From the NCBI GenBank assembly GCA_029718625.1, contig CM056389.1, positions 11,146,117-11,210,116 of the forward strand: a stretch of DNA of 64,000 bases. Reading direction: 5' to 3'. Below, piece by piece: positions 5,670 to 32,302 of this stretch. How positions within the stretch are numbered: the first letter of the stretch is position 1; each line of letters begins with the position of its first letter. Made by a program: the position numbers and the translations under genes. Under the pieces are notes generated by a model. It saw only the letters and a list, made by a program, of their open reading frames with translations, made no database searches and was not told the origin of the DNA. This DNA comes from Synaphobranchus kaupii (taxonomy: Eukaryota > Chordata > Actinopteri > Anguilliformes > Synaphobranchidae).

Positions 5670-5868
5670 AACGACGCTGAAGTTGGCTCCCGATTCGCAG
5701 CTCCCGATTCGGAATTGCCGGTCCACCTTAAATCGGTCGCGAAAAGCGATTGTATGCTTTCACGGTCATCCTTCCGCTTTTTTCTCCGCTAAATCTAATT
5801 GGCTCAACATTCTGATAGTCTAGTATATATATATTTATTTATTTATTTTGGATACTGCACCGTTTTGA
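5670..5868 (+). repeat. left terminal inverted repeat of the foldback element
   Basis: Begins AACGACGCTGAAGTTGG, contains two CCCGATTCG words, and matches the reverse complement of 10083-10279 with only one or two substitutions. Such high identity implies recent mobility or gene conversion. Confidence 0.9.
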
Positions 5869-7085: not shown

Positions 7086-7099
7086 TGACAGACGAACGA

Positions 7100-8274: not shown

Positions 8275-8279
8275 AACAT
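7411..8279 (-). pseudogene. DIRS tyrosine recombinase fragment (copy 1), frameshifted
   Basis: Minus-strand segments in three frames align with the better-preserved recombinase at 16204-17247. They are the N-terminal LFKEGLVESTL...ASQF piece (8282-8082), a middle piece with VSELHALSVKPSCMRLGDSS (7927-7850), and the C-terminal catalytic piece (7875-7411). The last carries HSTWGVATSW and FYHLD. In the HxxR catalytic box the Arg is replaced by Trp (HSTW), and several frameshifts are present, so it is inactive. Confidence 0.85.
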
Positions 8280-10088: not shown

Positions 10089-10279
10089 GTGCAGTATCCA
10101 AAATAAATAAATAAATATATATATACTAGGCTATCAGAATGTTGAGCCAATTAGATTTAGCGGAGAAAAAAGCGGAAGGATGACCGTGAAAGCATACAAT
10201 CGCTTTTCGCGACCGATTTAAGGTGGACCGGCAATTCCGAATCGGGAGCTTCGAATCGGGAGCCAACTTCAGCGTCGTT
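10083..10279 (-). repeat. right terminal inverted repeat of the foldback element
   Basis: The mirror partner of 5670-5868, ending in CTTCAGCGTCGTT next to the shared target sequence TCTTTACC. Confidence 0.9.
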
Positions 10280-10286: not shown

Positions 10287-12265
10287 CAGGGTCGGCGTCA
10301 GGGGCGGGCCTTGGGGGGCAATGCCCGCCCACCAGACTGCTGGTGCCCCCCCCCCCCCCAGAACTGTCTAATGATTGGCTATATTCTAGTCCTTTATCCA
10401 TGTGGGGAAATAATTTAATTTCAATAAACCAGTAAACTAATTCAGATGTATTTTGTTTTAATGTTTTTAATTTTATTTTTTATATAATTTTTAATTTGAT
10501 ATTCTAAAACGGTTTACACAAAATACAATCACCTCCAGTACTACTATGATTGAATTGCCTCAGAGCCTATCATCTTTGAGGTTTCAATAATTGACTCCTC
10601 CTTCGCTGTTTGCGAAAACGGCGGGCTAATCACGCAGGTTGGAAAACTTTCAGTTCAACTTTGAACAAACAATCTAACTACAGTCGGCCTATTTCTAGTA
10701 AATGATCGGACGGTTACGATTAACTCTATTATTTTGGCCCTCCAGAGGTAATATGCACCTGGTTTCTACTAGGTTTATTTAAATGTCAATATCTCAAAAT
10801 ATATTCCTTGCACATCCATGGTTTAAAGTTCGAATTGAAGAAGCTGTAGCTATCATTCAGAAATTTGCAACAGAATACATTTATTTCAGAATAGTTACAT
10901 ACAGTATATATAATAACCATAACATACGTCGCCTAATGTATTTAAATACGTTTTTTTTTTAAAGCGCGTGTATTTAATCAGCAACAACAACTTAGCCTAT
11001 TTCAGCCCTAAGTGCGACGGATGGTCGCTGTGGAAATGCAACAAGATAAACTCTTCGGGGTTAATCAGAAAACAGCTGTAGCTGAATATACTGGTAAGTA
11101 CTTGGTTTCCTAAATATATTTATACGAGAGATTTTGGATTTAAAAAATGAGGTGTCTTCTAAACCAAAAGTGCATCAGGTAGCCTACTGTAGCTATATAG
11201 TAGCCTACAGTAAGCAAGGAAAAACGGCGAATGCTCATTTGTACAACGTTTAAAAAAAATATTGTTTCTATACGTGAACATGATTTTCTTAGCGTGTATA
11301 AACGGTGCATTTTACAGTCTGGCTGTGGCGAGAGGACGGTCGTAAGTGCTTTGGGCTATTCGCACCCTCCTAATTTATTGTAGGGCCTACTGCTGTGCAA
11401 CTGGAGAAGCTGAGGTTTTCGCAAGCGGCCGGCTAAGTTACCTTTTTTTAAAAATACTGCGTCAAAATGTACGGGGTTTTCTTAAAGCTGTAGTTTATAA
11501 TTTCAGACACATGAATACTGTAGGCTAATTGTGACGGATACGTCTCAAACACTAGGGGCAAAGTTTATAGTTAAATTTAGTGAGCAAATAAAAGTTTGTC
11601 GATGTAGGCTACTGCGGAGGTTTCAAACTTGTCGCATCCTCTTCTAATGGTGAGCCCAGCTGTTGATTGATAGTTTTATGCGCCAGCCTTGGTACAGTTT
11701 TGCTTATTTACGTTACGGTCTAAAAACATACTTATTTGCGACCATGGCCAATTTTATGTAGCTAGATATTGGAATTTTAGAAATGTGACAAATCTCACGC
11801 ATTGACGGTCTAAAAAAATTGAGAGTTATGTTGTATGGTAATGTGTATAGGCTAGCTATAGCTACATATCACTCGTGTTCGGTGTATTCAGTATGATTCT
11901 ATTCTATTCTATTACACCGGGGTATTGTTTTCGCTCCTGTATCCTGCGGTGTATCGTTTGTGTAACTGTCGAAACGGCTCACTTTATTTCAAATTGGTGA
12001 ACGCTCGACTTAACAGCGGAAGGTCAAGCCCCAAGCATACTGTACTACTACATATGCCGAGGTCGCTACATCTCTCCGAGTGTTATTCTGGTTCTATTCT
12101 ATTCTATTTTGCTATATTCTATTCTGTATTCGTGTAACAGTGCTATGTTTCCCCTCTGCAAAATATACTGTATGTATAATGAGTTTGTAAGTTTGGTCTC
12201 GGATTTGCCCCCCCCCCCCCAAAACCAAATGCCCACCCGTTTGATTCGTTATGGCGCCGACCCTG
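10287..12265. mobile_element. non-autonomous hAT-type DNA transposon
   Basis: The ends are the inverted repeats CAGGGTCGGCG (10287-10297) and its complement (12255-12265), followed inward by GGGCGGGC/G-run sequences on both sides. It is flanked by the perfect 8-bp duplication TCTTTACC (10279-10286 and 12266-12273). Eight-bp duplications and CAGGG tips are hAT hallmarks. I find no transposase in its 1979 bp. C-runs of 13-14 bases near 10347-10360 and 12208-12220 and ATTCT microsatellites near 11893 and 12087-12130 lie inside. Confidence 0.85.
11893..12130 (+). repeat. two short ATTCT microsatellites
   Basis: Runs of (ATTCT)n occur near 11893-11913 and 12085-12128 inside the hAT element. Confidence 0.8.
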
Positions 12266-12380
12266 TCTTTACCATACACTTTATGCGGGTTTACGCAACC
12301 TTTCATTTCGCTCTTGGTAGAATTTAACAAAAGAAAAACAAAATGCACACTGTATAAAGGGTGCAGTTGATCGTAGTAAT

Positions 12381-12549
12381 AATATTGAAAAAAGAAATGA
12401 TCACCGCACACTTAGCTCCGTGTAGAGCTATTATTAGTTGTATTGCCTTACCAACGTTCCGATTTTCGTCTTCATCAGGAAATTTGCAATAAAACTAACA
12501 ATGGGCTACACGGAGCTAATTGCGGTTCATTTCTCTTTTTCAATAATAT
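12381..12549. mobile_element. small inverted-repeat element (MITE-like)
   Basis: The ~45 bp at the left (ATTGAAAAAAGAAATG ... TTAGCTCCGTGTAG) are repeated in inverted form at the right, around a core containing CGTCTTCATCAGG, a motif common in fish MITE/SINE remnants. The total is about 170 bp. Arms are diverged, so this is an old copy. Confidence 0.65.
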
Positions 12550-12552
12550 AAC

Positions 12553-12912
12553 AACAAACACATTTGCAAACATAATAAAGACGAGTGAACAAGCCTGTGC
12601 TACCTTCTTTTAATGCAAAATTCAAGTAACTTAGTATATAGCAAAGCATAGCCTATATGGTTTTTTTTGGGTAAAGCTTCGTAGGTTAATGAGGTTAGCC
12701 TAAAACAGATTCCTATCCTTTTGGGCAACTAGCCTACAAGGTAAATATAAATACATATTAGTTATACATTTTAACTACAAATATAACACTCAAAATTCAC
12801 AATTATAAGATTTAACTGCAGCCAAGTGAAAACCAAAACATACAAATCTTAAAAACAACTGCAAGCAGACAATTTGCTTTATTTAACTGTTTATCTAACT
12901 GTACATTTTCAA
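12553..12912. other. 3' flank of the DUF4806 gene, nothing recognised
   Basis: AT-rich; no element ends identified. If the two-gene transposon ends nearby, its terminal repeat should lie here, but I could not find a match to the right side (26-27.3 kb). Confidence 0.35.
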
Positions 12913-13085
12913 CTAAATTTGTGGCATCGAGGGCTGAGACTGAGTATGGACAGGGGCACTATTTCTTTGCCCCCTCTCTCTCCTTCCTCCACCCCTGTCA
13001 GTGGCTAGCTGCAGCCACCGCTTCATATATTTTTCAATTTCCCCGTCTGTAGACTGGGAGCACAGGGGGTTCTTCCTTATTGACT
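12913..13085 (-). CDS. DUF4806-type protein, exon 5 (C-terminus)
   Basis: After an acceptor in a CT-rich tract (CTCTCTCTGAAG), the exon reads SIRKNPLCSQSTDGEIEKYM, then KRWLQLATDRGGGRRERG and a Gln/Ser/Pro tail to TAG at 12915-12913. The pattern R-(N)P-x(8)-I-E-x-x-K-x-W-L-x-A-x-D-R-x-G-G-R is the C-terminal signature of DUF4806 proteins. It joins exon 4 through a split Lys codon (A|AG), which also decides between two possible AG acceptors. Function of the domain is unknown; the family includes many transposon-associated proteins in fish and invertebrates. Confidence 0.82.
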
Positions 13086-13193: not shown

Positions 13194-13339
13194 TGAGAAT
13201 GATGTCTTTCAAAGCAAGTGACTCAAAAGCCTGCTTGCCATTTAATTTTTTTGGCAACATCATTTGCTAGGGCTTTTGCCAGTACTCGCCATACAGTCTC
13301 CTTGGTGGTCATTCCTCCCGACAGTCCAAAAAACGTGAT
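13194..13339 (-). pseudogene. DUF4806-type protein, exon 4, with a one-base frameshift
   Basis: Acceptor TTTCAG and donor GTACGT bound 146 nt. It begins ITFFGLSGGMTTKETVWRVL, continues AKALANDVAKK, then changes frame within a run of seven A (about 13242-13248) to LNGKQAFESLALKDIIL. Both parts are family-typical (LxGG...T...L......N; NGKxAFxxLxLKDxI). Removing one A gives 145 nt, and all five exons then sum to 984 nt, a multiple of three. So this is either a real one-base insertion or a homopolymer sequencing error. Confidence 0.8.
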
Positions 13340-13888: not shown

Positions 13889-14097
13889 CAATTTGTTCTT
13901 TAGATCTGACTGTGCAGCTATCCTGCCCTCTACTCTTGCCAGATGTTCAAGTGAGGACACTGGAAAGCCAAGGTCTGATAAGTTAGGGACTTCAGCACAG
14001 TCTGCCCCACTCGACTGGATTCTTTGCAACTGCAGCAAAATTAGTTGCTGCTGTTGTTTAATGGTCTCCATTGTTGTGAGGATCTCATGTTGCACAG
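13889..14097 (-). CDS. DUF4806-type protein, exon 3
   Basis: An acceptor (TGAATTTTTGCAG) and donor (GTAAGG) frame 209 nt. It encodes a predicted coiled segment (HEILTTMETIKQQQQLILLQ) followed by FPVSSLEHLARVEGRIA, the linker that precedes the DUF4806 domain in family members. It starts in phase 1 (CT + GTG...) and ends in phase 0, matching exon 2 (ending with a single C) and exon 4 (starting ATC) exactly. Confidence 0.83.
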
Positions 14098-14261: not shown

Positions 14262-14890
14262 CATTGCTTATTATTGGCACCCCTGCATTTATATATAGAA
14301 TAAAGCAATCATTTTTAATATTTAGTCGCATATCCTTTGCATGCCATGACTTCCTGATGTCTGTGACCCAACAACATCAAAAGACTCTTGATATCCTATT
14401 TTCTGGTACTCTTACAAGCAATACTATAACGTCTCTGCATTTGAATGGATCTCTATGGGAATTGGGGGGTGGGACTAGATTTAGTTGTAAATTACACTGG
14501 AACAGTATGGAACATATGGTTGGCTAAATGGCTCTAAGTCATCAAGAGTTTTACGTATCAAGCCTTAAACCATCTCTCTGCTGCCAGAAATGCAGTAGAT
14601 ATGGATGGATAACTTATTTTTCAGAGTTCAATAGGAAAATTTGTCAGGAGAAACAACCCTCCAAGTGATCCATCCATATCTACTGCATATCTGGCAGCAG
14701 AGTGATGGTTTGAGGCTCGTTTGATACCTCAGACACTTGATGATTTACAGCCATTTAGCCAGCCATGGGTTCCATACTATTCCTGTGTAATTTCTTGCTT
14801 AATCTAGTCCCATCCCCCAATTCCCATAGAGATCCATTGAAATGCAGAGAGGTTATAGTATCGCTGAAAATAAGATATCAAGAGTCTTTT
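14262..14890. mobile_element. palindromic MITE-like element
   Basis: Arms 14379-14609 and 14669-14890 are diverged inverted repeats around a 59-base loop, so the transcript could form a hairpin of about 220 bp. Upstream, TTATTGGCACCCCTG (14269 onward) is the kind of end seen in fish MITEs with TATACAGTGCCCTCC tips. A second, partial copy of one arm lies at 22805-22970. It sits in intron 2 of the DUF4806 gene. Confidence 0.8.
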
Positions 14891-14904
14891 AATATCCTTT
14901 CATA

Positions 14905-15202: not shown

Positions 15203-15742
15203 CTATGTTGCAAATCAAAAATAAACATGGTAGGTCTTCCTCAATAATAAATAAATCCTATATTGTACATGGATTGTTACTAAAACTTACCCTGGTCACA
15301 TAGAAACTTGTTACTTTAGTCTTATACATATCACAAGATATTGTGACACTGGATTACCATTGACAACCAGCAACAATGTCATAGGTCAGTTTATGGCCCA
15401 TTGATGCTGGTGTGCTCAACATAGCATAATGCATGGCTAGGCTATGTCGAATTGGCTGGCGAGAGGGTGAGCTCCCACTGTCCCACTAATTATACAATAC
15501 ATGATATGACCTATGCTACTATTTAGCCACAAGAAATTAGATAATTAATGCTATATTTTACATGGCTACTGTGACAAAAATTCAACCTATGCACAAATAA
15601 AGTTACTACTTGAAAAAACCTATTCAAATCTATGTGCAATAATGAGACGCATTGAAGCTGGTAGAAATCGGATCCAAAATGGCTTCCGAATAGATGCAAC
15701 CTAGTGCTGTTACACGCAAGGATATCGGTTAAAACGTACGGG
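15203..15742. other. AT-rich intron sequence with a 30-bp DIRS scrap
   Basis: No gene. At 15450-15479 there are 30 bases identical to 16955-16984 of the DIRS recombinase gene, starting AATTGGCTGGCGAGAGGGTG. The rest shows nothing. Confidence 0.6.
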
Positions 15743-15750
15743 TTACGGAT

Positions 15751-15990
15751 GTAACCCTGGTTCTATGAATACGGTCAACATGCCACGGTATGGGTCATCC
15801 ACGCCGAGAGGAGGAGCTGCTAGGAGACTGTTTATCAAATTAACCACCACTATGGGCGGAACCACGTCACGCCATAAATATGGCGCTTGTACGCCGCCCG
15901 ACCTCTTTTGCCGACTTGAGGGCACTTGCCGTCCTGAGGGCCTGACCACGCAGCGTGGCGTGTTGACCGTATTCATAGAACCAGGGTTAC
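15751..15990. repeat. DIRS 3' terminal repeat with internal complementary region
   Basis: The outer 37 bases (15751-15787, starting GTAACCCTGGTTCTATGAAT) return as their reverse complement at 15954-15990 with one mismatch. Directly beyond, 15996-16019 repeats 15774-15797 in direct orientation with one mismatch. In DIRS elements, sequences complementary to the element tips form the internal complementary region that templates circle formation. Confidence 0.75.
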
Positions 15991-16203
15991 AATCCGTCAA
16001 CACGCCACGGTATGGGTCACAGAGTACCAAATAACGTCAGGCGGGGAATGTAGTGGGGTAACCAGGACCGCAGGGTCATAGCATGAGTGCGGATCCCGTC
16101 AAATAAAATACACCACTGGCTGCTGTTCTACCAGAAGAGCAAGCTCAAGTGGGAAACGTGGAACATAACCACCGGGTGATAAAAACCCTGAATCATCACT
16201 AAT

Positions 16204-17247
16204 TTATATCTGAGGTTGCTCCGCTGCCCCGAGGACAGAGGAGGCAACCGATGCTGATGACACTACGTCCAGGCTATAAAACCTGGCGAAAGTGAGAGAT
16301 GAGGCCCAGCCCGCCGCTGCACAAATGTCAGCGAGTGGGGCGCCACGTAGTAAGGCCCAGGAGGTAGCTACACCCCGAGTGGAGTGAGCTACCACGCCTG
16401 AGGGAGGGGGCACGTCAGAGCTGCTGTAAGCCGTGGAAATCGTCTCTACGATCCAGTGGGCCAAGCGCTGTTTAGACAGGGCAAGCCCCTGCGTAGCCCC
16501 TCCATAACCCACAAACAGGTTATTAGTTCTCCTAACCGCACTTGTGCGGGAGATGTAAGACCGCAGGGCCCGGACAGGGCACAGTGAGTGCAGTCTGGCC
16601 TCTTCAGGGGTCTCATGGGGAGGAGGATGAAAAGCCTCCAACACGATTGGCCGAGACACGTAAGACCGCGAGAGGACCTTAGGCCGAAACGCGGGGTTGG
16701 GGCGCAGAGAGACCGGTGAGCTACTGTCCCCCAACTGCATACAGGCTGGGTGTATTGACAGTGCGTGCAGCTCGCTCACACGCCTCGTGGAGGCGATAGC
16801 GAGCAGGAAGCCAGTCTTAAAGGAGAGGAGCTTTAGGCTGAGCCCATCTAGGGGCTCAAACGGTGGCTCAGTGAGGGCATTCAAAACCAGCTGCAGGTCA
16901 CATGAAGGGACTGCGTTAGATCTAGGCGGCCGAAGCCGCCTGGCTCCTCGGAGGAATTGGCTGGCGAGAGGGTGAGCTCCCACTATCCGGCCCTCGATAC
17001 GATCATGGCGGTCCGAAATGGCCGCCAGATAACCCCTGAGCGTGGATTCTGCCAGACCTTCTTAAAAGAGGGACTGGAGAAACGCCAAAATGACTGATAC
17101 CTCGCACCGGGTCGGGCTAGACCCGTTCGTTTGGCACCAGCGGCTGAACCTGCTCCACTTCCCGGCGTACAGTGCCCTCGTGGAGGGCGCCTTAGACGCC
17201 TGAAGTGTCTCCAGCACTGCTGACTCTAGGCCCTGCGGGCCAAACAT
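16204..17247 (-). pseudogene. DIRS tyrosine recombinase, one in-frame stop
   Basis: The frame starts upstream of 17247 (LETLQASKAPSTRALYAGKW, N-terminal SAM-like core-binding part) and is broken by TAA at 17064-17062, where copy 1 has Lys (LFKEGL). It then runs 260 codons to 16204. Counting from 16983, the catalytic residues are Arg in TRRVSELHAL (67/68), the HSTR box (H200, R203) and Tyr in ARFYSLD (Y236), i.e. the R...HxxR...Y set of tyrosine recombinases. The enzyme would insert the circular cDNA. One A-to-T change is the only visible defect. Confidence 0.88.
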
Positions 17248-17740
17248 GCAGGTTGAAAAGCTCCGGGTTCGGATGCCACAGCAGGCCCTGGGCCTGCGAC
17301 AGCATATCCGCCCTGGTTGGGAGGCGCCAGGGGGTGCCCTGTAGCGACTCCCTTAGGTCCGCCATCCATCTCTGCTGGGGCCAGTTGGGGGCAATCAGCA
17401 GAACCTGTGCCCCTGAGTTCCTGATCCTTGCCAGAACTGTGGCAAGGAGAGGCAAGGGGGGAAAAGCATAGAGCAGGGCTGGAGGCCACTGGTGTGCCAG
17501 CGCGTCCACGCCCAATGTCCCCGCCGTGCCCACCATTGAGTACCACAGGGGGCAGTGAGCATTCTCCCTGGATGCGAAGAGGTCCACCTGTGCCTCCCCG
17601 AAGCGGGACCAAATGGACTGCAAGATATCTGGGTGCAGGCGCCATTCCCCTGGTCTCCGGCCACCTCTGGACAGCATATCGGCTGCCACATTGGCTGTGC
17701 CCGGCACGTGCACTGCCCTCAGGCAGCCCTGGGCGAGTTG
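17192..17740 (-). pseudogene. DIRS polyprotein C-terminal part after RNase H (truncated)
   Basis: The frame reads AQGCLRAVHVPGTANVAADM, LSRGGRRPGEW, then HPDILQSIWSRFGEAQVDLF and further to GLLWHPNPELFNL before ending near 17192. HVPGTxNxxADxLSR is the conserved end of DIRS-type RNase H. The codons before it (QLAQG) continue smoothly from LLWAHA at the end of the plus-strand half at 22649, showing that the two halves were one gene. It overlaps the start of the recombinase frame slightly, as is common in these elements. Confidence 0.85.
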
Positions 17741-17925
17741 GAATCACGGTTAGGAGCTTGACGAGTCACGCCCTCTTTCCTGCTACCGGCCGAAGGGGTT
17801 GTAGCGGCGATTCTCTAGTGGTTGCTACACAGGGGGAATTGAATTGCATAGGGTCCAATTGGCTACCAAATTTGGAGAAAAAGATTATGTATTTATTATT
17901 ATTATTATTATTTTTATTTAATTAT
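17741..17925 (+). mobile_element. tRNA-type SINE, 3' half
   Basis: From GAATCACGG through GTAGCGGCGATTCTCTAGTG and AATTGGCTACCAAATTTGG to an (ATT)n tail (17893-17920). This looks like the 3' body and tail of a fish SINE. Its 5' half with pol III boxes is at 22651-22795 on the other strand. The two join when the segment between is reversed. Confidence 0.68.
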
Positions 17926-17943
17926 CTATTTTATCCAACAGAG

Positions 17944-18213
17944 GCACGAATAGGAACTTCATATCTGAGAGTGAGGATGAGAATGAAGACGAGGGTAAAC
18001 TGAGAAAAGGCCAGGGTAAACGAGGAAGAGGGGGTCAGATGCCTTTACCTCCTGCACCACCTGTTGCACCAGTGGCATTACCATTACAACTGGATAGTGA
18101 GGCACCAGGACCCCCCAACATGCCAGAGACAATATGTCACATATTCAGCACACCGCTTACCAGCCAAACAAGGCGCAATATTCCTCAGAGGACTGAGCAG
18201 CCAAGATATGATC
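17944..18213 (+). CDS. DUF4806-type protein, exon 2, on the opposite strand to the other exons
   Basis: Between an acceptor (TTATCCAACAGAG, second AG used) and a donor (GTAAGT), 270 nt encode an acidic stretch (NFISESEDENEDEGK), a basic KGQGKRGRGGQ, a Pro-rich segment and a tail ending RTEQPRYD. Acidic/basic low-complexity linkers sit at this place in the family. Its phases (two bases in, one base out) fit exon 1 (ending with one base) and exon 3 (starting with two). All other exons are on the minus strand: exon 2 lies inside the inverted segment 17741-22650 and cannot be spliced to them now. Confidence 0.8.
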
Positions 18214-19004
18214 GTAAGTCTAAATGGAAGTTCTGTAACAAATTTTGAAATGATAACTTCAATTGTTGGTGCTTAACTCCATTCTGCAGACCCCTAGCAG
18301 TAGTAGACGCCGGAGTTTACACTTTACAAAACATCAGAAATACGTTGCTAGTTCCATGAGAATACAGATTTTATCACCATAAACCGCATATTATCATAAT
18401 CAGTACTTATTATCAACGAGCGAAATATCACGTTTGTATGTGCCACCATTGGCTTGTAATTCATGAAAGTAGCATGCTATGCTGCTACACTGTTATCTAC
18501 AATGGACCCGACCACATGTAAGATAGCAGACATTTAAACATATTGGGGAGTTAAAGTTTTTATTTTATCACCAAAAAATCGTTTACTATCACAGCAACAA
18601 TAAATAATACCCAAGGTCCTGAATACAGCTCATTATAACTGTCACATGCCTACTCACTCCACAGGGGGGGGAAAAATTAGTGGTATTTGTTTGTCACCCG
18701 ATAACTTTCTTTTGCTATAAAAAGCTGGGGTAAAATATGAACTAAAGTTATAACCTTACCTTTGCTTATGAAGACTAACATGTCCCCTGCAAAAATCAGG
18801 TTATTTTTTGCCTTGGTTGACCCGTTTTTAAGATATAATCCTCGTTTCCACGTGCATGCAAGCTCCAAAACGACCGTGCGTAATAATGACCATTCAAAAA
18901 TTGCTGGTGTAAGTCTTTCAAACAAACGTGATTTTAATTGACACTTATATCATCCAATAGAGCGCATCCTAGGCTTTCTGAAATGGTATGGCATTCCCAT
19001 AGGT
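18214..19004. other. intron 2 sequence of the DUF4806 gene (inverted), nothing recognised
   Basis: AT-rich, no element ends or coding region seen. It ends at the DIRS 5' terminal repeat. Confidence 0.45.
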
Positions 19005-19139
19005 AGTTCTATTTCATACCGGTCAACACGCCACGGTATGGGTCATCCACGCCGAGAGGAGGAGCTGCTAGGAGACTGTTTATCAAATTAACCACCACTA
19101 TGGGCGGAACCACGTCACACCATAAATATGGCGCTTGTA

Positions 19140-20343
19140 ATAATAATAATAATAATAATGCATTCAATTTCTATAGCGCTTTTCTAGGTACTCAAAGTGC
19201 TTTACAGTTTAAAATTACACACAGTAAAATTATTTAATAAGTAGTTAATAAAAAATAATAATAAAAAATAAAAATAAAAAATAAATAAAAATAAAATAAA
19301 ATAAAATAAAATAATTAAGACAGATAAAAAGAAGGAGTATAATTTAAAATTTCAGTCATGGGATAGAGGGGAGGATGTTTAACAGGGGAAAGCCAGTTTG
19401 AAGAGGTGGGTTTTGAGAGCCTGTTTGAAGGATGGTAGGGTGGTTGCCAGACGGATGTGGATGGGGAGGGCATTCCAGAGGGAGGGTGCAGCAACTGAAA
19501 AGGCCCTGTCGCCCCAGGTCCGGAGCTTGGTCCTGGGGATTGTCAGATTGTTCGTGTCAGCGGACCTGAGGCGACGGGAAGGAGTGTGACGGGGGAGGAG
19601 GTCAGAGAGGTAGGGAGGGGCCAGGTTATTTAGGGCTTTGTAGGTGATGAGCAGTATTTTGTAGTCAATCCTGTGTTTAACCGGGAGCCAGTGGAGGTTG
19701 TGGAGGACAGGGGTGATGTGATCTCGGCGACGGGTGGAGGTGAGCAGACGGGCAGCAGAGTTCTGAACGTATTGTAGTTTATTGAGGATTTTGTTGGGTG
19801 AACCATAGAGGATGCTATTGCAGTAATCGAGTCTGGAGGTTATGAGGGCATGGATGAGGGTTTCAGCAGCGGAAAGGGACAGGGAGGGGCGGAGGCGGGC
19901 AATGTTCCGGAGGTGAAAGAAGGCAGTTTTGGTGATGTGGTTGACGTGCGGTAGGAATGAGAGGGTGGGGTCGAGGATGATGCCGAGGTTGCGGACATGG
20001 GTGGAGGGGGTGACGATGGAACCGTCAATGGTGAGAGAGAAGGTCTGGGCGGAGCGGATGAGGGAGTTTGGGCCGATGATGAGTATTTCCGATTTATTGC
20101 AGTTGAGTTGGAGAAAGTTCTGTTGCATCCAAGTTTTTATATCAGCAAGGCAGGTGGTGAGGGTGGAGTGAGTGGTTGAGGTGATGGTTTTGGAGGAGAG
20201 GTAGAGTTGTGTGTCATCTGCATAGCAATGGAAGCGGAGGCCATGGCGGCGGAGAATTTGACCCAGGGGAAGTATATACAGGATGAAGAGGGGGGGGGCC
20301 GAGCACTGATCCTTGGGGGACACCATGAGTGACTGGGGCGGTG
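19140..20343 (-). mobile_element. L2-type LINE, 5'-truncated, inserted in the DIRS element
   Basis: It is flanked by the 7-bp duplication GCTTGTA (19133-19139 and 20344-20350), which splits the DIRS terminal repeat. The minus strand runs from mid reverse transcriptase to a 3' UTR whose end (AAAGCGCTATAGAAATTGAA) plus an (ATT)n tail is the classic L2/CR1-clade terminus. An A-rich, TAAAA-type simple repeat occupies 19243-19315. Confidence 0.92.
19379..20340 (-). pseudogene. L2 reverse transcriptase, C-terminal part
   Basis: The 316-codon frame contains the palm motif CYADDTQLYLS (YADD at residues 35-38), thumb/C-terminal blocks AAETLIHALITSRLDYCNSI and HITPVLHNLHWLPVKHRIDY, and ends ALKTHLFKLAFPC. 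The preceding motif GVPQGSVLGP is in another frame, separated by a run of nine C (coding strand) near 20290-20300, which suggests a slippage frameshift. The N-terminal endonuclease and first RT blocks are missing because the copy is 5'-truncated. Confidence 0.92.
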
Positions 20344-20744
20344 GTGCTTGTACGCCGCCCGACCTCTTTTTGCCTCCTCGAGGTTGAGACTGCGACTGTG
20401 TTTGTTAGTTTGCGATAATTGCGATTTTTTTTCTTGCCTCTCCCAAGCACCCGGAGCTACGTCCTGTTCGGAGTAAGTTTCCGGGGCTTTCCCTCCCCCA
20501 GCAACGCGGTTTGTTGCTGTTCGTTCGATATCCTTCTGTTTGCTTTCAGCCGCGGTAAGGATTAATTCTTTCCTTTGTCGGTATAAGTGAAAGGCAGAGG
20601 GCTGTCGTTTTTCTTTTTTTCATACAGAAATTATTATTGGTTGTACTAATATCTTTCTGTTTATGCTAGCCATATTAGGCATTGTGTTGGTTTACATGTT
20701 AGTTCCACAGCAACACAGTAACTAAAAAAAAAAAAAAAAAGAGA

Positions 20745-21033
20745 ACAGCCGGAAGGGGCCTCTCTGCTCGTGAGAGCAGACGCTGCCTGAGGCTTCCACA
20801 CCCCATCGCGGTCCTTCAGTATCACTGATTCGGGCCCTTGGCTTGGTGTTGGACATACGCCATTCCTGTTGGTGGTGGGCAGCACGCTGCCGCTCCAGCT
20901 AAAAAAATAAATTAAAAAAAACAGCCGGAAGGGGCCTCTCTGCTCGTGAGAGCAGATGCTGCCTGAGGCTTCCACACCCCCTCGCGGTCCTTCAGTACCA
21001 CTGACTCGGGCCCTTGGCTTGGTGTTGGACACA
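20745..21033 (+). repeat. 176-bp direct duplication in the DIRS leader
   Basis: 20745-20855 and 20921-21031 are nearly identical ~110 bp copies (ACAGCCGGAAGGGGCCTCTC...), each preceded by an A-rich stretch and each containing the small hairpin CTGCTCGTGAGAGCAG. The second copy ends 14 bp before the gag ATG. Confidence 0.88.
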
Positions 21034-21047
21034 CTTCCGGGCTAAGC

Positions 21048-21629
21048 ATGTCGGAAGGTGTACAGAATCCGGGAGATGGTGGGACGTCTGGGGAGGACGT
21101 CGCACCTGGGCAATCAGCGTTTGTGGAGCATGATATGGAGCCACATGCTTGGGGGGCTGGGGCCAGGAAGCGCACTAGAAAGCGTAAGCATCAGGAACCG
21201 GAGTTCCATCAGCTTCAGCTGCAGGTGCAGGCGATGCAGCAGACCCTTCAGGGGCTGGTAGCATCACAGCAGCAGTCACCCAGGCCCCGGGACCCCTGGG
21301 GCCTGTTGCCTGGACCTTCCTGCCGTCACCCTGACGAGCTGTCTACGATGGCGTCGGATAGCCTGTACCGTCAGACGGACCCCCAACAGTCTGGGACTGA
21401 GGAGGGGTCAGTGTCTGGCCAGGAAAGCAACGGCGCTTCTGAGCTCCCACCCTTGGATCCCTCCGACCGGGTGGTGATTCTCAGGGCGGCGGAGCATGCT
21501 CGCCTTCCCCCCGTGGCGGTTCCTGCTCCCTCACTTTTCAGCCGCGGCGTTCACTTTGGAGTCGGGGTACAGGCTCCAATTCAACACCAGGCCCCCCCGC
21601 TAACCGCGGGGTTATTCCTACTCGGGTGA
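21048..21629 (+). pseudogene. DIRS gag-like protein, C-terminally truncated
   Basis: ATG at 21048 opens 193 codons: an acidic N-terminus, a basic RKRTRKRKHQEPE, a Gln-rich coiled-coil-like segment (QLQLQVQAMQQTLQGLVASQ) and a Ser/Pro-rich region. The N-terminal coiled coil and position 5' of RT fit DIRS gag. The frame ends just as the RT region begins, and the usual gag C-terminal half seems deleted. Probable start chosen because it directly follows the leader. Confidence 0.65.
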
Positions 21630-22220
21630 GAAACGGGGCTGCTGCGCGAGCTCTCTCCAACGAGATTCTGGTGTTGCTAGCGAAGGGAGTAATAACACCC
21701 CTGCCCTCGGTGGCAGTGGGACGGGGGTTTTATTCAGCCTATTTTCTGGCTCCCAAGAAGGATGGGGGCTTCCGCCCCATCCTAGACCTGAGAGGGCTCA
21801 ACCGCTTTTTAAAGCATCTGCCCTTCCGCATGCTCCGCCTCGCCAGTCTCCTCCTTCAGGTGAGAGATGGCGATTGGTTCACCTCTGTGGATCTGAGGGA
21901 TGCATACTTCCATATCCCCATACACCGGGATCACCGGAAGTACCTCCGCTTTTTCTTCAGGGGCACAGGGTACGAGTACTCGGTCCTCCCCTTTGGCCTA
22001 GCCCTGGCCCCACGCACTTTTACGAAGTGCATGGATGCCGCGCTGATCCCACTCCGTCGCCAAGGTATTCGCATTGCGAACTACCTGGACGACTGGTTAA
22101 TCTGTGCTCCGTCAGTGGAGCGAGCGAGAGAGGATACGAGGTCGGTACTGGCCCACTTGGCCAGCTTGGGCCTGACCCTGAACAGGGAAAAGAGCCACCT
22201 CACCCCCTCCAGAGACGCGT
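21626..22220 (+). pseudogene. DIRS reverse transcriptase (truncated at both ends)
   Basis: From 21626 the frame reads VITPLPSVAVGRGFYSAYFL, then KKDGGFRPILDLRGLN (finger motif), SVDLRDAYFHIPI (motif A, Asp 89), SVLPFGLALAPRTFTK (motif B) and NYLDDWLI (motif C, YLDD at 153-156), and is typical to about residue 196. After LTLNREKSHLTPS the frame departs from the family because a block of perhaps 80 residues is missing before RNase H resumes. The first codons directly abut gag, so the RT N-terminus is also lost. Confidence 0.9.
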
Positions 22221-22247
22221 TGGGCGACGGCACAAGGAGTGAGCCCG

Positions 22248-22650
22248 CACGAAGACGGGCGGCGACTCCTCCCTATTACCCAGAAGTGCCTGGAGCCAGT
22301 GGATTGGTGGCTCACCACCCCTGGCCTCAAGGAGGGCGTTCCCTTGGGGCCAGTAGGGTTAAGGGTGACGATCACCACGGACGCCTCCAAGACCGGCTGG
22401 GGAGCCGTCAGAGGGAGCCAGTCCGTGCAGGGTTTGTGGAGCCCCTCATGGGCAGGCAAACACATAAACCTGCTAGAAATGGAGGCAGTGCTTCGGGCAT
22501 TGGTCCATTTCCGCCCAGTGGTCTGGCGCAGACATGTTCTTGTCCGGACAGACAGCTCCACGGTGGTCGCTTACATAAATCGCCAGGGTGGGGTTCGATC
22601 CCCAACCCTGCATGCGAAAGCATGCCAGATCCTGCTATGGGCACATGCTC
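22248..22650 (+). pseudogene. DIRS RNase H domain, cut at the inversion border
   Basis: In frame from 22239 it reads DGRRLLPITQKCLEPVDWW, then TITTDASKTGWGAV (catalytic Asp), HINLLEMEAVLRALVHF (Glu), VLVRTDSSTVVAYINRQGG (Asp), and ends ACQILLWAHA at 22649. Beyond this point the sequence is SINE, not RNase H. The continuation (QLAQGCLRAVHVPG) is at 17740 and down on the minus strand. Confidence 0.9.
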
Positions 22651-22795
22651 TCCCCTGTCTCCCCCCACCCTGAGAGCAGCCGCCAATTGCCACTCCCTCA
22701 AGGCACCGGAACATACTTGGATCTGGCAGGACCAGGGATCGAACCCCCCGATCCTCTGTGCCTCTGTCCGCTGCACCACCGCGGTGCCCGTGATA
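22651..22795 (-). mobile_element. tRNA-derived SINE, 5' half with pol III promoter
   Basis: On the minus strand there are an A-box-like TGGTGCAGCGG (22778-22768) and a canonical B box GGTTCGATCCC (22745-22735), about 22 bases apart, as in tRNA-derived SINEs. The body continues to 22651, where the DIRS RNase H begins. Its 3' half is at 17741-17925. Confidence 0.78.
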
Positions 22796-22804
22796 ATTGT
22801 TTAT

Positions 22805-22970
22805 ATACAGTGCCCTCCATTATTATTTTATTGGGGGGGTGGGATTTAGTTGTAAATTACACTGGAACAGTATGGAAACACATGGTTGGCTAAATGGCTC
22901 TAAGTCATCAAAGGTCTGACGTATCAAGCAAGCCTTAAATCATCACTCTGCTGCCAGAAATACAGTAGGA
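22805..22970 (+). mobile_element. partial copy of the 14.3-14.9 kb MITE
   Basis: Starts with the tip TATACAGTGCCCTCCATTAT (22803 onward). 22835-22969 matches 14466-14607 closely (ATTTAGTTGTAAATTACACT, CTGCTGCCAGAAAT). The second arm is missing. Confidence 0.75.
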
Positions 22971-23381: not shown

Positions 23382-23568
23382 TTTTAGTTGCCCTGATTTT
23401 GACATCCAACAATTCTCCCCAAGAATCCTCAGGAGGTTCGGCTCTCATGACAGCTCTGCATCGTTCTCGATCTGTGTAGGGAGGCCAGTATGACATTCCG
23501 TCATGCACCCACGATTTAGGAACAATCTCAGTGTCCCCTGTTGCAACAAAGTCCACAATGAGGAACAT
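23382..23568 (-). CDS. DUF4806-type protein, exon 1 (N-terminus)
   Basis: ATG at 23568 opens 62 codons plus one base, up to the donor GTATGT (23381 downward). The start MFLIVDFVATGDTEIVPKSW, then SYWPPYTDRERCRAVMRAE, PPEDSWGELLDVKIRATK, follows the family pattern MFxVVxF...EIVPxxW...WPPY......R.....EP..W....V.I. The ATG is 520 bp downstream of the transposase stop on the same strand. Downstream splicing to exon 2 would cross about 930 bp in the uninverted arrangement. Confidence 0.85.
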
Positions 23569-23941: not shown

Positions 23942-24090
23942 GAAAAGTAACCCTGATCTTGACTGAAAGAAGACTGGATAAATTTACCAATCTGAGCCAT
24001 CCCTATTGAACTGGCACCTGACATTTGTTTTTTTAAATTCTATTTTTAGGTTACACTAAGTGCAGAAGAGGCATGCCCACAAATTTATTT

Positions 24091-26039
24091 CTACTTGACC
24101 ACAGTTTCATCAATCTTAGCATATTTCAGATCTTGGGACAAGTCTGTCAAGAGGAACACTCCCAATTGACAGGAGTTCATTGGGTAGTCAAAGAAGTTTT
24201 CTGCAGAGGTGAACTCATTGTACACAACATATGGTTCTCTCTCAATCAAAATGATGTTCCTAACTATGCCAATTGAACCATTGCTTCTGATGCAATTGTC
24301 ACTAGTGGATTCCTTGATGCAAAACTCTGCAAGATGCATTTCTTTGTACTGAGTGACTGGACAGGTAATGTGTTCTGGAACTGGGCCATCATTGTGCGGT
24401 TTTTGCAGTTTAGGACTAAGTTGTGTGTTATGGCGTCCACTGGCACTTTCTAATTCAGAAACCCGTCTCACAACTTGTGCAACTGGAAACTGTGGACAGC
24501 GGATCATCCTCTTGATCTGGCCCAAGAAATTTTCAAAAGGAAAACTTGAAATGGTGTCTAAGCATCCATGTTCTCTAACATCATCACTGAGGTGTATGAG
24601 GCCATGCACGTTGTACACCAAATTATCTCTCCCATAGAGCTGGCCAAAGTGGTCTACAAACGAGACAAGCAGGGTCTTTGAAAAATCACACAAAACTGAA
24701 CAAAGGGTGGGGCATGACAAAATGGATATAGCAACATACATTAACATGAAATTATTGTAAACTGGGGAACTGACAACTTCGTAAAGTGCTACGGGCCCAG
24801 TATAGAGCAAAAATTGGCGATACTCTGTTGCCTTCCACCTGTGCCTCTCATCAACTGATCTTGGTTTCCTAGCAAATTCAGTTAGGTGTATGATGCTTTA
24901 AAGCTAACAAGTTTCTGGACAACTGAGTCACCTTCTGGTATGGTAAGCGGCAACTCAGTGGACCCTTGCTGCCTGTCCAGAGCTCCAGAAGCTTCTTTGT
25001 TACACCCAGGCACACGAGATGCATGTAATCATGGGGAAACATACTAAGCATTCCTATGCCTGTCTCAACAAGTGGGGATGTTGATTTGTGATGTTCCTGG
25101 TCTGTTTGAAGTCTAAAACTTTCATCAGATCTTAAAGAACAATTAGTGTCTGGAAAGGTCATTTTACTATATACATGGTAACCATTTGATGTGCATTTGT
25201 CACAGCCTGCATATCCAGTATGTGATTTGATTGCTTTGATAAAGGCACGAGCAGGGGCATCACACATTACAGAAGTAATCTTAATAAACAGTGTTTTCCC
25301 CTTATAAGTAAAACCAGACTGTAACAGTTTGATCTCCTTCACTAAATCTTTTAAATATACTATAAGTGGGTCTGGCTTTGAATTTCCACAAAACAGGCCA
25401 ATCAAACAAGGTTTCCTTCCTTTAAATCCTTGAACCAACCCCAAAATTGGCCATAACTGGAAATTTGAGCTCTTAAAAAGAGGAAGTCCATCAAAATTCA
25501 GTTGTAATCTGAAAATGTGACGATCTGGAATTTTTGACCAAATGCCATGAAGAAATCCAGATAGAGAATTTAAAATGCCAAAGTAAAAGTAGGTGCCCTG
25601 CAATTCTTTCAATTGTGTAGCTTGTGTTGGTATTCAGGAGTGTCCTGGCATCTTTAGGCAAGTTTGGATGATGGCATCTCAGGATTGACAGCAAGGCTGT
25701 TAATGCCACTAAAGTAATGCCGTACTCAAGTGCCCAATCTGTCAGGCTGTCTCTCAGGCTTGGTTGTGAATGTTCATCATCACTCTCAACCTCTTCCTCA
25801 TCGTACTTGACCTCTTCCTCAGCATTAGCCACTTCTCTATACTCAGTGTCCATGAAAGTCCCAAAGTCCTCCTGAACACTGCCCTCAACGTCTTCACCAT
25901 GATCAGTGCACTCGTTGAGATAAGCAGCTTCGGTGCAAGGATTGTTGTCGGAGAGTGTCCCTAGTAGTCGTGATACGTTGGCTGTCGACCTTCGACGAAG
26001 GTTTGATGATGTACTGTATTCTGAATACCTCTCACTCAT
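24091..26039 (-). pseudogene. EnSpm/CACTA-like transposase with two frameshifts
   Basis: ATG at 26039 opens an acidic N-terminus and then SLRDSLTDWALEYGITLVAL and LPKDARTLLNTNTSYTI. A one-base insertion near 25613 shifts frame. The catalytic core follows: LQLNFDGLPLFKSSNFQLWP (DG), SVMCDAPARAFIKAIKSHTG (CDAPARA), GYAGCDKC (zinc-binding type), and FPHDYMHLVCLGVTKKLLEL. A second one-base insertion near 24880 shifts to EFARKPRSVDERHRWKATEY and the C-terminal half (VHGLIHLSDDVREHGCLDTI, SSFPFENFLGQIKRMI), ending at 24091. These blocks are those of the metazoan transposase-domain family related to EnSpm/CACTA. About 650 residues in total, nearly full length. The superfamily name rests on memory of motifs; terminal repeats were not found. 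Confidence 0.8.
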
Positions 26040-27335
26040 TGCAGCCAAAGGGAAGGAGACCTGGACCAGACATACAGAGAGATACAGAGGTTTTCTCTTT
26101 TATGTGTTAGGTATAATTTTTTTCAAAAATTATAATATATAATTCGTACACCTAGTAATCCGTGAGCCAGGTTGGTCAGTACCATCTGAGGGGAATAATG
26201 CTCAGTGATTTTTTGGCAAGGTATACATCGAGTTATAAAATATGTGATAGCATTGTTTGGACAGCACCATGCCTGGGTTCTATCAGTATGTGAAAAATCA
26301 GACGAGAAAAGAGAACATTTTGGATAAGTGCTTTGTTAACTTAAAGCCTGCTACGTTTTTGATCTGTTATTGTCTGTCAATACCTGTTAATATTTTATTT
26401 GCCAACTGCAATAAAAGCCTTTGCACTATCAACTCCTTATCAAAACTATGCGAATAACAGCAAATAACTGTACAAATCATAGTATTTCGGGCAAAACATA
26501 CAACAGTGTTTGACACATTTAGCCTACTAGTCAATCGCATTGAAAACAAACTGGGCTGAACCTGACACCACGGTTGACAATCGTGCTCCCGGTGACGATT
26601 CAATAGATTAATTGTTGTGACTATGATCACGAAAAAGCCTGAGACCGGGTTGTCGAACAACATAACGAGTAACGTTATAGTTAACGCTAACCAAACAGCT
26701 TGTTAATAATGTAGTTAGCTAACAAGATATTAAACATTTTTTGTAACGTTAACTATTCGCGGCTCATTTATATGAATTTGCAGTAACGTTAGGCTGTGAG
26801 GCGATTTTAACAAGTCTCTATGTTAGCCTTCGACATCATTCAGGCAACACTTCACGCGATTATTAGCCGGACAAGGACCGCTGGTTCACGGAAAACTTGA
26901 AAAAGCGATTGGGATCACCGACTGCAAAACCACTGACGGTAAATAAACAACAATCATTATTTAAGTATGTGAATGTAATCATAGCATAGACGTATTCAAT
27001 ATTTTTTCAATGTATTTATTGTTTTGATTTTCACATAACATCTATTGTTCTCACAAAACCCGCGGTGGTCGTGGTTCTAGATTTGCAGTGGCAGCCATAT
27101 ACTCTGCAAAAGGGACAAATTGACCACCTTCACGTGACAGGTCACGTTGGCCAATCAGAGAAAAAACTTTGGGCCGTGGAAACGGTGCCGTTTTGAGAAG
27201 GCAGTTGCCTTTCTAGTTCGTATATAGTTCTGTGGTGCTGCGTGAACTAAGGCGGAAATGACAACAGGAGGTTAAGCAGGCGCCTTAGCAGTGGTGCAGC
27301 AGCTCTCGGGCGCCTTCATCAACATCTAACCTTTA
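26040..27335. other. upstream region of the transposase
   Basis: No exon is recognised. A possible splice acceptor (TCTGGTCCAG) lies just before the transposase ATG on the minus strand, so a 5' exon may exist further right. The end of the two-gene transposon should fall here or slightly right, but no repeat of 12.5-12.9 kb was found. Confidence 0.4.
27130..27160. promoter_or_regulatory. E-box and CCAAT-box cluster
   Basis: CACGTGAC (27131-27138) and CCAATCAG (27151-27158) lie 12 bases apart in otherwise AT-rich DNA, 1.1 kb upstream of the minus-strand transposase. They could form a promoter for it or for an unseen gene; motif evidence only. Confidence 0.3.
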
Positions 27336-28846
27336 GCGCACACATAAAAAACATATCTAGAGTAGCTTTCTTTCAGTTAAGGAACATAGCTAAAATAAGG
27401 CACTTCCTATCAATTGGGGACGCAGAGAAATTGATCCATGCTTTTGTTACGTCTAGGCTAGATTACTGTAATGCCCTATTATCTGGCTGCCCTAAATCCC
27501 TGCTAAATAATCTCCAGCTTGTGCAGAATGCAGCCGCTCGCATTTAAACTAGAACTAAGAAATATGAGCATATTACCCCAGTACTAGCATCGTTCATTGG
27601 CTACCAATTAAGTTTAGGATAGACTTTAAGGTTTTGCTTCTGACCTTTAAAGCTTTAAATGGACTTGCGCCAGTGTATATATGTAATCTGCTTTTACCAT
27701 ATCACTTCGTTCCCAAGACGCAGGCCACCTAGTAGTCCCAAGAATATCTAAAAACTTGACGGGTGGTAGAGCTTTCTCCTACAGAGCGCCACTACTGTGG
27801 AACACCCTGCCAAAATTTATAAGGGAATCAGACACCGTCTCAATATTTAAGTCTAGATTAAAAACGCACCTTTATGATCAGGCTTATAATGAGCTATAGT
27901 CTGGAGACAGGACCAGAGAAGCATTTAACCATAGATTAATGTGGGGTGGCATCCTTTCCTTACTGTCACCTGTCAACAGCTGTGACCCCATCTTCCTGGG
28001 CTGGCTCTTGATAGGTGGGTAGGATTGTTTTCCCTCTCATGACTGCATGGTTTCTCAAACTCTGTCTTCATAGCTGTGCAGCCATAGATTACTCCTGGCG
28101 GGGGCACTTGTCCAACCCTCCCACCCCTTCCCCACACTCCACCCCTCCAGTTGGTGCTCCTGCTGCTCTATTACACTTTCCCTAACTGTTTTCTCTCTCT
28201 CTTTTTCTACATTCTGCCGGCGGGGCTTATGCCCTGCATCTCGAGAGTTGCTGTCCGGCTTTCTGTCTGTTGCCGCTTGCCCCTCCCTCCTTACCACCGC
28301 TGCCAGCTGCTCCCGCCGCCATCGGCGCCCGGTTCCCCACCATCACTGCCGCCACATCTGGACTGTCATCTAGCTGCTGCAAATTATATTATCATGGACA
28401 TTGGCTGTTTTGACCATGTTGGTTGCTTAAAGCCCTAGACCAGGGGTGTCAAACTCCAGTCCTGGAGGGCCGCAGTGTCACAGGTATTTGTGGTTTCCTT
28501 TCAATCAGCACCCAGTTAAAGCATTGAGAACAAGGTGTGTGGACTTCTTAGCCAATTAGTGACTTAAATTAATCACTTGTGCTTAAACGCACCAAAAACC
28601 AGCAGACACTGCGGCCCTCCAGGACCGGATCTTGACACCCCTGCCCTAGACCCTGAGCCGACCAGGTTCCCCCATTGAGTCTGGTTCCTTCCAAGGTTTC
28701 TTCCTTTACACCAGGGAGTTTTTCCTTGCCACTGTTGCCCTTGGCTTGCTCTTGTGGGGGGTTTAGGCTGGGTTTTGCTGTGAAGTGCATTGTGACAACT
28801 TGTTGTGAAATGCACTACATAAATAAAGATTGATTGATTGATTGAT
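27336..28846 (+). mobile_element. L2-type LINE, 5'-truncated and decayed
   Basis: Plus-strand frames give VAFFQLRNIAKI, AEKLIHAFVTSRLDYCNALL, QLVQNAAARI, HITPVLAS and FKSRLKTHLYDQA, the C-terminal reverse transcriptase blocks of the L2 group, broken by stops and frameshifts. A long 3' UTR follows with TTCCAAGGTTTCTTCC, TTTTTCCTTGCCACTGTTGC and CACTACATAAATAAAGATTG, ending in (GATT)n at 28828-28846. It belongs to a different family from the L2 copy at 19.1-20.3 kb, whose tail is (ATT)n. A hAT MITE interrupts it. Confidence 0.88.
28441..28643. mobile_element. hAT-type MITE inserted in the L2 3' UTR
   Basis: 203 bp with inverted ends CAGGGGTGTCAA / TTGACACCCCTG and an inner inverted CTGGAGGGCCGCAGTGTC / GACACTGCGGCCCTCCAG-like pairing. 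It is flanked by the perfect 8-bp duplication CCCTAGAC (28433-28440 and 28644-28651). This CAGGGGTGTC family is abundant in fish. Confidence 0.92.
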
Positions 28847-30600
28847 CGCCACGCCTTCAAACAAACCAACAACAGCATTAGTTAGAGAGCGAGGAGAGAT
28901 AGGTGTTTCGTCATGACACGCGGATCATTTCACAATATCGCCACCTATCTCGGCTACCCCTCCCTATGTGTTCAAACACAGGTATAAGGGTTATTTATTA
29001 TATCCTACAATGTAATAGCAGTATTTTCCTCTTTCCCTTATCTGTTCTCTTTTCTAATTTCACAATTAATATTTATTCCGTTTTTTCTTATTATTGCTAT
29101 ATTTTAAAATATTTTTTAAATATAATGCAATCCTTTATTGTTCTTCAATTAATGTGATTTTGTTTCATAAAGTGAGCTTCTAGCATAAGCCCTGTAGGGT
29201 TTCCAACCTCTCTAGCATATTTCTGTAAATTATTTGTGTACTTGCATTTGTTCTTTATTTGTGCAAATAATAAATAAATACATAAATAAATATGTGTTTT
29301 GAGTGTGGGATTGAGTAACATAAGGTCGCTACTCTGGTTATTATATATTGTACCATACATGTACTTTCTAGAAGTAACGTTAAGCCTATATGAATGCTAC
29401 AATACTGGTAATGCTACACAAACAAATGAAGTTGCCAATTCTCATTCTTGACTGCTTCTGTAATCCATCTGCCTTGAGATAAATTAGGAAAAAATGTACC
29501 TCTAACAGTAGGCCTATATAAAATCTGTTGACTGAATCAAAAAGTGTATGAAGAAATAATAACAAAAAAAGGCCTGTCCAAATATAGGTAACTTAATGTA
29601 TTTTCCAATACATTATTCAAGTATATTTGTAATTATACCATATTCTATAGAAAAGTAAAGATTCAGCTTTGTTATCAGGAGTGATTTGTTTTTGCAACAG
29701 CTTAAGTGTAAAATCCTAATGGGTCTGTTGCCCCAAAAAAATTGTCTTCTCCAGAACATTTGGTGTGAGCATATAGAACATTAAGGTAGGACCACCAAAT
29801 GATAACTCATTCATTTATTTCAAAGTATTTGGATGTCTTTTGATGGGAAAAAAACTGTTACCTAATCAATATTTCTCTTCACCATCCTTATCAGTAAGAC
29901 AAGATCTGAAGGTATGACCTGCTTTCCATTGTGTTGAGAAGTGGAGTTTTCCCTATATCCAGATGGGACAGTGTATAGCCAGACCTCTGCATGTCACATG
30001 CCATCAGAGAGAACCACATACAAACAACCCAATGCCATAATAACATGAAGGGTATTAACAATGAAACAATATTAAGCAACACAACCTGGGTACAATGCTG
30101 TACATCTTGAAAATAGTTGTAAGATTAATGCTTGAGATTAAAGATCACTGTTATTATGGCTATAGGTTGGTTAGATATGGGTGGTCTGGTCTCCAGAACA
30201 AAATATATAGATTATACCAGCAATTAAGCAAAGAACATTTTCAGAATATTTATTTCACACAATATGGTGACATTCATAATATTGTAAATAAACTGTAGGA
30301 CTATTCCCCTCCACCACCATTCAAGCCACAATGACACCGGGTTCTTTCTGTCATTTTGTATGTTTATTATCAAATCAGAAATATATGAACAATGATTGGT
30401 GACAGGTAAAAGGAACATGACATGTTGATATTGGAATACATCTTATGCAAATACAAAATTTATCCATACATAACTGGCAAGGAAAATGTCATCTTTCTTG
30501 ACATTGTTCCCTCAAAACACATAATGACTCCCAGTATCCCAATGTCCCTATATGTACTATATTAGTTATTCATTCATACAAACTCAATTTATCTTGTTAA
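28847..30600. other. AT-rich non-coding DNA, nothing recognised
   Basis: Low-complexity A/T-rich sequence with short AAAT runs near 29265-29290. No exon or element ends were identified. Confidence 0.4.
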
Positions 30601-30609
30601 AGACATTGG

Positions 30610-30945
30610 ATGGCATTCAATTCAATAAGTTCTTTGTCAGGGTCCAAATAGACCACCTGCTGTCATGTAATTTGAATAAATCATGAACACATATGAGTAG
30701 CTGAATCATGTATGCTATGTACACTTTGGATGTGAAATGAAACAATGATTGTGAGGCTAAAATACAGACTGCAAGCTTCAATTTGAGGGCATTTTCATCC
30801 ATATTGTAACTGAAGAAGGCTGCAGTACAGGGCTGGCATAGCATCACCAGTGAAGATACCCAGCATCTGATGATTTCTACAGCTCGCAGACTTCAGGCAG
30901 TCCTTGCACGCAAAGGATATGCAACCAAGTATTATTTCATAGCAA
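30610..30945 (+). mobile_element. decayed DNA-transposon fragment
   Basis: The end reads in one frame as KKAAVQGWHSITSEDTQHLM, then ARRLQAVLARKGYATKYYF. This resembles the C-terminus of Tc1-type transposases and a sequence often seen in fish interspersed repeats. A second copy of 29 of these bases (30857-30885) lies at 31451-31479. The borders are uncertain. Confidence 0.5.
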
Positions 30946-32160: not shown

Positions 32161-32165
32161 GAATA

Positions 32166-32302
32166 CACACAGTGTAGGAAGTCGGTTGCGATCTTCCTTA
32201 CCCAAAACACACAATCTGCATGGTGTGGGAGATCGGTGACGATTCTCCTTACCCAAAACACACAATCTGCACGGTGTGGGAGATCGGTTACGATTCTCCC
32301 AG
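32166..32302 (+). repeat. 51-bp tandem repeat, about 2.7 copies
   Basis: ACAATCTGCA recurs at 32211 and 32262, and CTTACCCAAAACACACAATC recurs with the same 51-bp spacing. The first copy (from about 32166) is diverged. Since 51 is a multiple of 3, a frame stays open through it, but no protein family is recognised. 32303-32590 holds nothing recognisable. Confidence 0.88.

Follow-up and report, generated by a model that had tools for sequence, protein, structure and literature searches.

Evidence for a 4.9 kb inversion through a DIRS retrotransposon, a SINE and a DUF4806-type gene in Synaphobranchus kaupii

The inverted block and its uninverted counterparts

The window analysed here, a stretch of 64,000 nucleotides (nt) from Synaphobranchus kaupii (contig CM056389.1; C14:11146117-11210116 in the searched genome of 1.50 Gb and 94 contigs), holds a DIRS retrotransposon, a short interspersed element (SINE) and a spliced gene of DUF4806 type, each of which is divided between the two strands at two shared borders. 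Judging from the sequence, we consider it very probable that this arrangement reflects a real 4.9 kb inversion, which spans positions 17724-22650 (4927 nt) and would have formed through two double-strand breaks and end joining. The original prediction had proposed the shared splitting of the three features, and protein matches, exon order and repeat orientation agree on it; its left border, however, placed at 17740|17741, lies 17 nt off, as positions 17724-17740 belong to the SINE and are continuous with it in an uninverted copy of the region on contig C22. Proof of a small inversion is difficult to obtain from a single genome. In this case, the two mobile elements, along with another copy of the surrounding unit, make the ancestral order and the exact borders recoverable within one assembly, and both the sequence of events and the scar left by repair can be read without a second individual.

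The C22 sequence (C22:12537008-12545577) is a second copy of the transposon-like unit that contains the inversion and shows 1.0-1.7% mismatches in six aligned blocks (gaps not counted). Its order corresponds to window positions 26065-22659 (minus strand), 17721-19011 (plus), 15735-14628 (minus) and 13501-12266 (minus), followed by 5670-5168, and it carries some insertions plus a gap removing exon 3 of the gene. This order is uninverted and DIRS-free, and exon 2 follows the orientation of the gene, placed between its exons 1 and 4. The SINE is continuous on C22, where 11 nt separate the window piece that ends at 22659 from the one beginning at 17724, and the DIRS site is empty, the sequence at 19008 passing directly into that at ~15735; such an empty site exists solely in the re-inverted order.

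The left part of the DIRS element (19009-22650, plus strand, its left end taken from the C22 empty site) comprises an inverted terminal repeat (ITR), the gag region, the reverse transcriptase (RT) and most of RNase H; family models match this strand as far as the right border (RVT_1, E=1.8e-26; RT_RNaseH, E=6.3e-7). The right part (15735-17723, minus strand; right end uncertain by ~2 nt) was delimited by tblastn of DIRS proteins, genome copies, repeats and the C22 empty site, and holds the rest of RNase H, the region of the recombinase open reading frame (ORF), an internal complementary region and the right ITR. When the best 120 of 1447 DIRS-type pol proteins from a search with the RT region were aligned to window positions 1-32592, 93 matched one or both sides of the join (79 both sides, 8 the first only, 6 the second only, 27 neither), the matches to the plus-strand piece ending mostly at 22640-22649 and those to the minus-strand piece starting mostly at 17722. 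The rejoined frame of the original prediction is two residues too long in 70 of the 79 homologues that match both sides; the remaining nine give a surplus of 0 (one), 3 (three), 6 (two), 7 (one), 32 (one) and 76 (one) residues. In addition, the pattern at the end of RNase H fits 42 of 121 proteins, with six residues between the conserved blocks in 40 of them and 5 and 14 in the others. This spacing indicates that the proposed frame was right in kind but wrong in detail: the right end at 22650 stands, while the minus-strand start moves from 17740 to 17723, and the residues QLAQGC are not part of the DIRS protein. The corrected left border (17723|17724) abolishes the surplus of two residues; a family variant or a small duplication was considered as its origin and rejected, given that genome copies show 17724-17740 to be SINE sequence.

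The copies of the DIRS family elsewhere in the genome lead to the same borders. A 101-nt stretch across the right border gave 40 genome matches (40 scored of 115 candidates), and the 39 besides the window itself cover its first 91 bases only, i.e. up to 22650. Among these 39, all 14 copies that were fetched are uninterrupted, with the left piece running to 22650, then 10 nt, then the right piece from 17723, all on one strand; longer alignments of both pieces show the same 10-nt step. The copies are 96.9-100% alike (median 99.7%, 91 pairs), and the family is thus young. As had been predicted, re-inversion restores the terminal repeats, which agree at 98% over 120 nt, lie in the same orientation as assembled and are inverted in the re-inverted order only. 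Continuity of both families across the rejoined borders, assessed on individual copies and not on a consensus, likewise holds once the left border is shifted by 17 nt and the 8 nt of filler at the right junction are set aside.

According to the available part of the literature on DIRS1-like retrotransposons (PMC3266345), terminal repeats of DIRS elements are expected to be inverted, and the element resembles this group in its RT and RNase H, its ITRs, its internal complementary region (15745-15787 against 15954-15997, 95% complementary) and an ORF in the place of the recombinase. Unlike the elements described there, the window copy is dead, as it is split by the inversion, is ~200 nt short and bears a long interspersed element (LINE) in one ITR. 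The missing ~200 nt are internal and present in all 14 fetched copies; the LINE (19140-20341, minus strand; RVT_1) lies in the left ITR and is flanked by a target-site repeat with one mismatch (19130-19139 and 20342-20351). No recombinase model matched ORF 16204-17061, which sits where a recombinase is expected and which, judging from this position, may be a tyrosine recombinase. A methyltransferase match (Dam, E=0.08) stayed below the cut-off, and in viral contigs five stretches fit a DIRS pattern, none of which was confirmed. A stretch of 35 nt at 15449-15483 is 97% identical to DIRS positions 16954-16988, yet lies outside the element.

For the SINE, the proposed division into two halves on opposite strands stands, although the proposed pol III half reaches to 22659 and not to 22651, positions 22651-22658 being filler. 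The 5' half (22659-22791, minus strand) lies outside the inversion, with two mismatches to C22 over 22659-22827, and the 3' body with its AT-rich tail (17724-17919, plus strand) lies inside it. The 7-mer AATTATC flanks the 5' side at 22792-22798 (minus strand) and recurs on the other strand at 17920-17926 (plus), next to the tail; it is likely the target-site repeat, a point of moderate weight given the AT-rich surroundings. A multicopy short element with target-site repeats is indicated by this repeat and by the 41 genome matches of the body (40 scored of 1916 candidates). The best of these other than the window is C22, at 98% over all 160 nt of the query; further matches stop near base 143, and among the candidates scored (40 of 1916) only the window and C22 match beyond the end of the SINE. 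The 5' half and the body occur in uninverted order in six of the seven other fetched copies, the seventh consisting of the body only, and wherever both parts are present in the other fetched copies, the stretch between them exceeds that of C22 by ~18 nt or more. A B-box-like GGTTCGATCCC, spotted by eye, may be a pol III box, and the fold z-score is -1.68; ARAGORN finds no tRNA in the 5' part, and window positions 1-32700 have no match to Rfam families at gathering scores. The SINE was not found in viral contigs (one 26-nt pattern), and six short strings of its letters gave a lone match in the literature, on a human gene promoter, which was taken as chance.

As both families are multicopy (40 matches for the DIRS stretch, 41 for the SINE body), two unrelated DIRS fragments in opposite orientation could in principle have come to abut two unrelated SINE fragments by chance. 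However, the fragments complement each other except for 10 and 11 nt, they have both borders in common, and on C22 the sequences that flank each insert run into one another directly, in the order that re-inversion restores; this contradicts such an origin and renders it vanishingly improbable.

Junction scar and formation of the inversion

At the left junction, DIRS position 17723 abuts SINE position 17724 with no shared base, i.e. the joint is blunt. At the right junction, DIRS position 22650 is followed by 8 nt of filler (22651-22658), accounted for by neither element and absent at this place from the C22 SINE and from the 14 DIRS copies, and then by SINE position 22659. In total, 11 nt of SINE (relative to C22) and 10 nt of DIRS (relative to the 14 fetched copies) are absent at the junctions; small losses or filler of this kind are expected of an inversion formed by end joining, as is the absence, likewise seen here, of homology of recombination length at the borders.

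Recombination between inverted repeats is a common route to inversions, and this, or annealing of short inverted microhomology, would be an alternative to end joining. No inverted repeat of useful length was found when the 600-nt stretches around both borders were compared and the repeats of the window inspected: matches between these stretches are only 8-13 nt long and none sits at both borders. With a left junction that shares no base, a right junction that carries filler, and the need to assume that both borders once held a longer repeat that has since been lost, of which C22 and the DIRS copies show no trace, we regard this route as extremely unlikely; the absence of large inverted repeats, on which the original prediction had based end joining, is borne out.

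The scar might also stem from staggered breaks or replication-based template switching rather than from plain breakage and joining, as a template may lie behind the filler, to which 7-nt matches exist in the SINE body and on the opposite strand of the right DIRS piece. These matches are no better than chance, since an equally long one arises in 355 of 2000 shuffles, and no significant template was found nearby. In the available part of the work on Drosophila cut-and-paste inversions (PMC7584159), end joining after clean breaks produces no duplications, whilst after staggered breaks the ends carry inverted ones; at the ends of the present block none were seen, and bases are missing instead, which points to the clean-break kind with trimming and makes the staggered or template-switching route very unlikely. 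As in these Drosophila inversions (PMC7584159), two breaks and non-homologous end joining would suffice, without inverted end duplications or a need for repeats; unlike in what is described there, the block is only 4.9 kb, there are small losses and filler, the breaks lie inside two mobile elements, and the exact borders could be obtained without the uninverted allele.

An assembly artefact, in which a correctly sequenced piece was placed in the wrong orientation, also has to be weighed, because the region is rich in repeats, among them the 39-nt repeat whose 31 kb array lies to the right, and because the case is made from the assembly alone. A plain orientation error preserves every base, and thus misorientation alone would not create the missing nucleotides and the 8-nt filler; moreover, the window contains no N (0 letters), and the borders offer no repeat on which an assembler could have switched. 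We therefore hold an artefact to be highly improbable.

The account that best fits these data is that one double-strand break hit the SINE within the first intron and the other struck the RNase H part of the DIRS element within the second intron, after which the freed 4.9 kb block would have been rejoined in reverse orientation by end joining. The same event presumably removed the bases absent at the junctions, with the enzymes of classical or polymerase-theta end joining as the likely agents. Several points weigh against this account or its details. C22 is a paralogue and not the uninverted allele, and the evidence stems from one assembly; the loss of 11 nt from the SINE depends on C22 alone, and the SINE varies at this place; the absent nucleotides and the filler might partly derive from later events; and an alternative division of the right junction, in which the SINE extends 4 nt further after a 10-nt deletion and only 4 nt are filler, fits the same letters.

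DIRS1-associated chromosome rearrangements have been proposed in the Antarctic fish genus Trematomus, in the available part of PMC5941688. Both cases concern fish DIRS elements and rearrangements touching DIRS sequence; in contrast to Trematomus (PMC5941688), the event described here is a single small inversion by end joining that makes no use of repeats. It seems unlikely that DIRS copies act as preferred break sites through the activity of a young family and that small end-joining inversions through them recur in this genome. We consider the event an ordinary end-joining inversion within a nest of mobile elements, unusual mainly for how fully a single assembly reveals it.

The DUF4806-type gene and the order of events

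Within the gene, exon 1 (23382-23568, minus strand, 187 nt), exon 2 (17944-18213, plus strand, 270 nt) and exon 3 (13889-14097, minus strand, 209 nt) match the protein P0001 from Coregonus clupeaformis, the only protein homologue found (1 of 327 candidates), in the order 1-2-3. Exon 2 is flipped by the inversion and, as proposed, lies on the plus strand whilst the other exons lie on the minus strand, between exons 1 and 3 of P0001; its alignment to this protein scores 60, whereas shuffles average 36.2 and do as well in 12 of 2000 cases, and the exon has 268 identical positions with C22, where it is 15 nt longer. Exon 4 (13194-13339, minus strand) has 146 nt and is 14 nt shorter than on C22 (160 nt, open), and the exon 5 region (12900-13080, minus strand; exact limits not set) was assigned by reading frame and is identical to C22 at 179 of 181 positions. 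Hence, the re-inverted gene of the original prediction holds for exons 1-3 (187, 270 and 209 nt), which stay in phase; its sum of 984 nt and its match of all splice phases were wrong, as exon 4 has 146 and not 145 nt, is frameshifted and reaches a stop. Since PF16064 (DUF4806) remained below the cut-off (E=0.003, 18.3 bits against 25, with the translation cut at the exon 4 stop), we refer to the gene only as DUF4806-type.

The lack of 14 nt in exon 4 relative to C22 breaks the frame independently of the inversion. Because exon 2 begins and ends in the same phase, a transcript that skips its 270 nt would keep the frame through exon 3, which is unlikely to matter for function with exon 4 frameshifted. 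As both gene copies look dead, the window copy through the exon 4 deletion and the C22 copy through its missing exon 3, the inversion probably broke nothing still working. A flipped exon of this kind may pass for a gene-model error.

With the SINE present in both unit copies, the DIRS element in the window copy only and both cut by the inversion, the SINE inserted first, the unit was then duplicated into two copies, the window copy received the DIRS element, and the inversion came last. The uninverted, DIRS-free C22 unit and the 14 uninterrupted DIRS copies thus uphold the claim that the inversion came after both insertions. The LINE in the DIRS repeat, which lies wholly inside the block, may have come before or after the inversion. 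The 1.0-1.7% mismatches between the unit copies set an upper bound on the age of the inversion as read from the sequence. Substitution rates amount to a few per billion years per site, which would place this bound, as an estimate only, at the order of a million years.

The host unit and its neighbourhood

The transposon-like unit (5177-26064) contains the gene together with transposase-like ORFs and is flanked by an 11-nt direct repeat (5166-5176 and 26065-26075), an 11-mer that occurs twice in the window, once at each end of the unit. The transposase-like ORFs, which are similar to a family with a wide distribution, form three overlapping frames upstream of the gene (24091-26064, minus strand); ORF 24878-25633 has 278 homologues at E<=1e-3, and another gave a weak match to DUF4218 (E=0.059). 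Over the 40 kb compared, similarity to C22 ends within a few nt of the unit ends, bar a LINE fragment farther off. From the flanking repeat, these limits of sharing and the transposase-like ORFs, the gene probably travelled as a passenger ORF within a DNA transposon. By eye, no matching flanking repeat was seen at the C22 copy, and no convincing CACTA-type terminal repeats emerged from a comparison of 10301-13000 with 24000-32592 only, a range that leaves out the unit end at 5177.

The window holds a further DIRS piece (7100 to ~8277, far end by eye), which also stops abruptly. It is flanked by a 181-nt satellite in opposite orientation, whose arms (5670-7095 against 10279-8941) agree at 90%, and C22 is without this insert; 5670-10279 may represent either a fold-back element or another rearrangement with a break inside a DIRS. 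Positions 14376-14893 and 22830-22968 belong to one short, partly palindromic repeat family, also matched in C22 and L003, which is perhaps a miniature inverted-repeat transposable element. At the left edge of the window, an inverted repeat (1-200 and 1229-1430, 97.5%) encloses ORFs within 1-1430 that, by eye, resemble a Tc1/mariner transposase. The array to the right occupies 32593-64000 (31 kb) with ~806 copies of the 39-nt repeat and shows long open frames on both strands.

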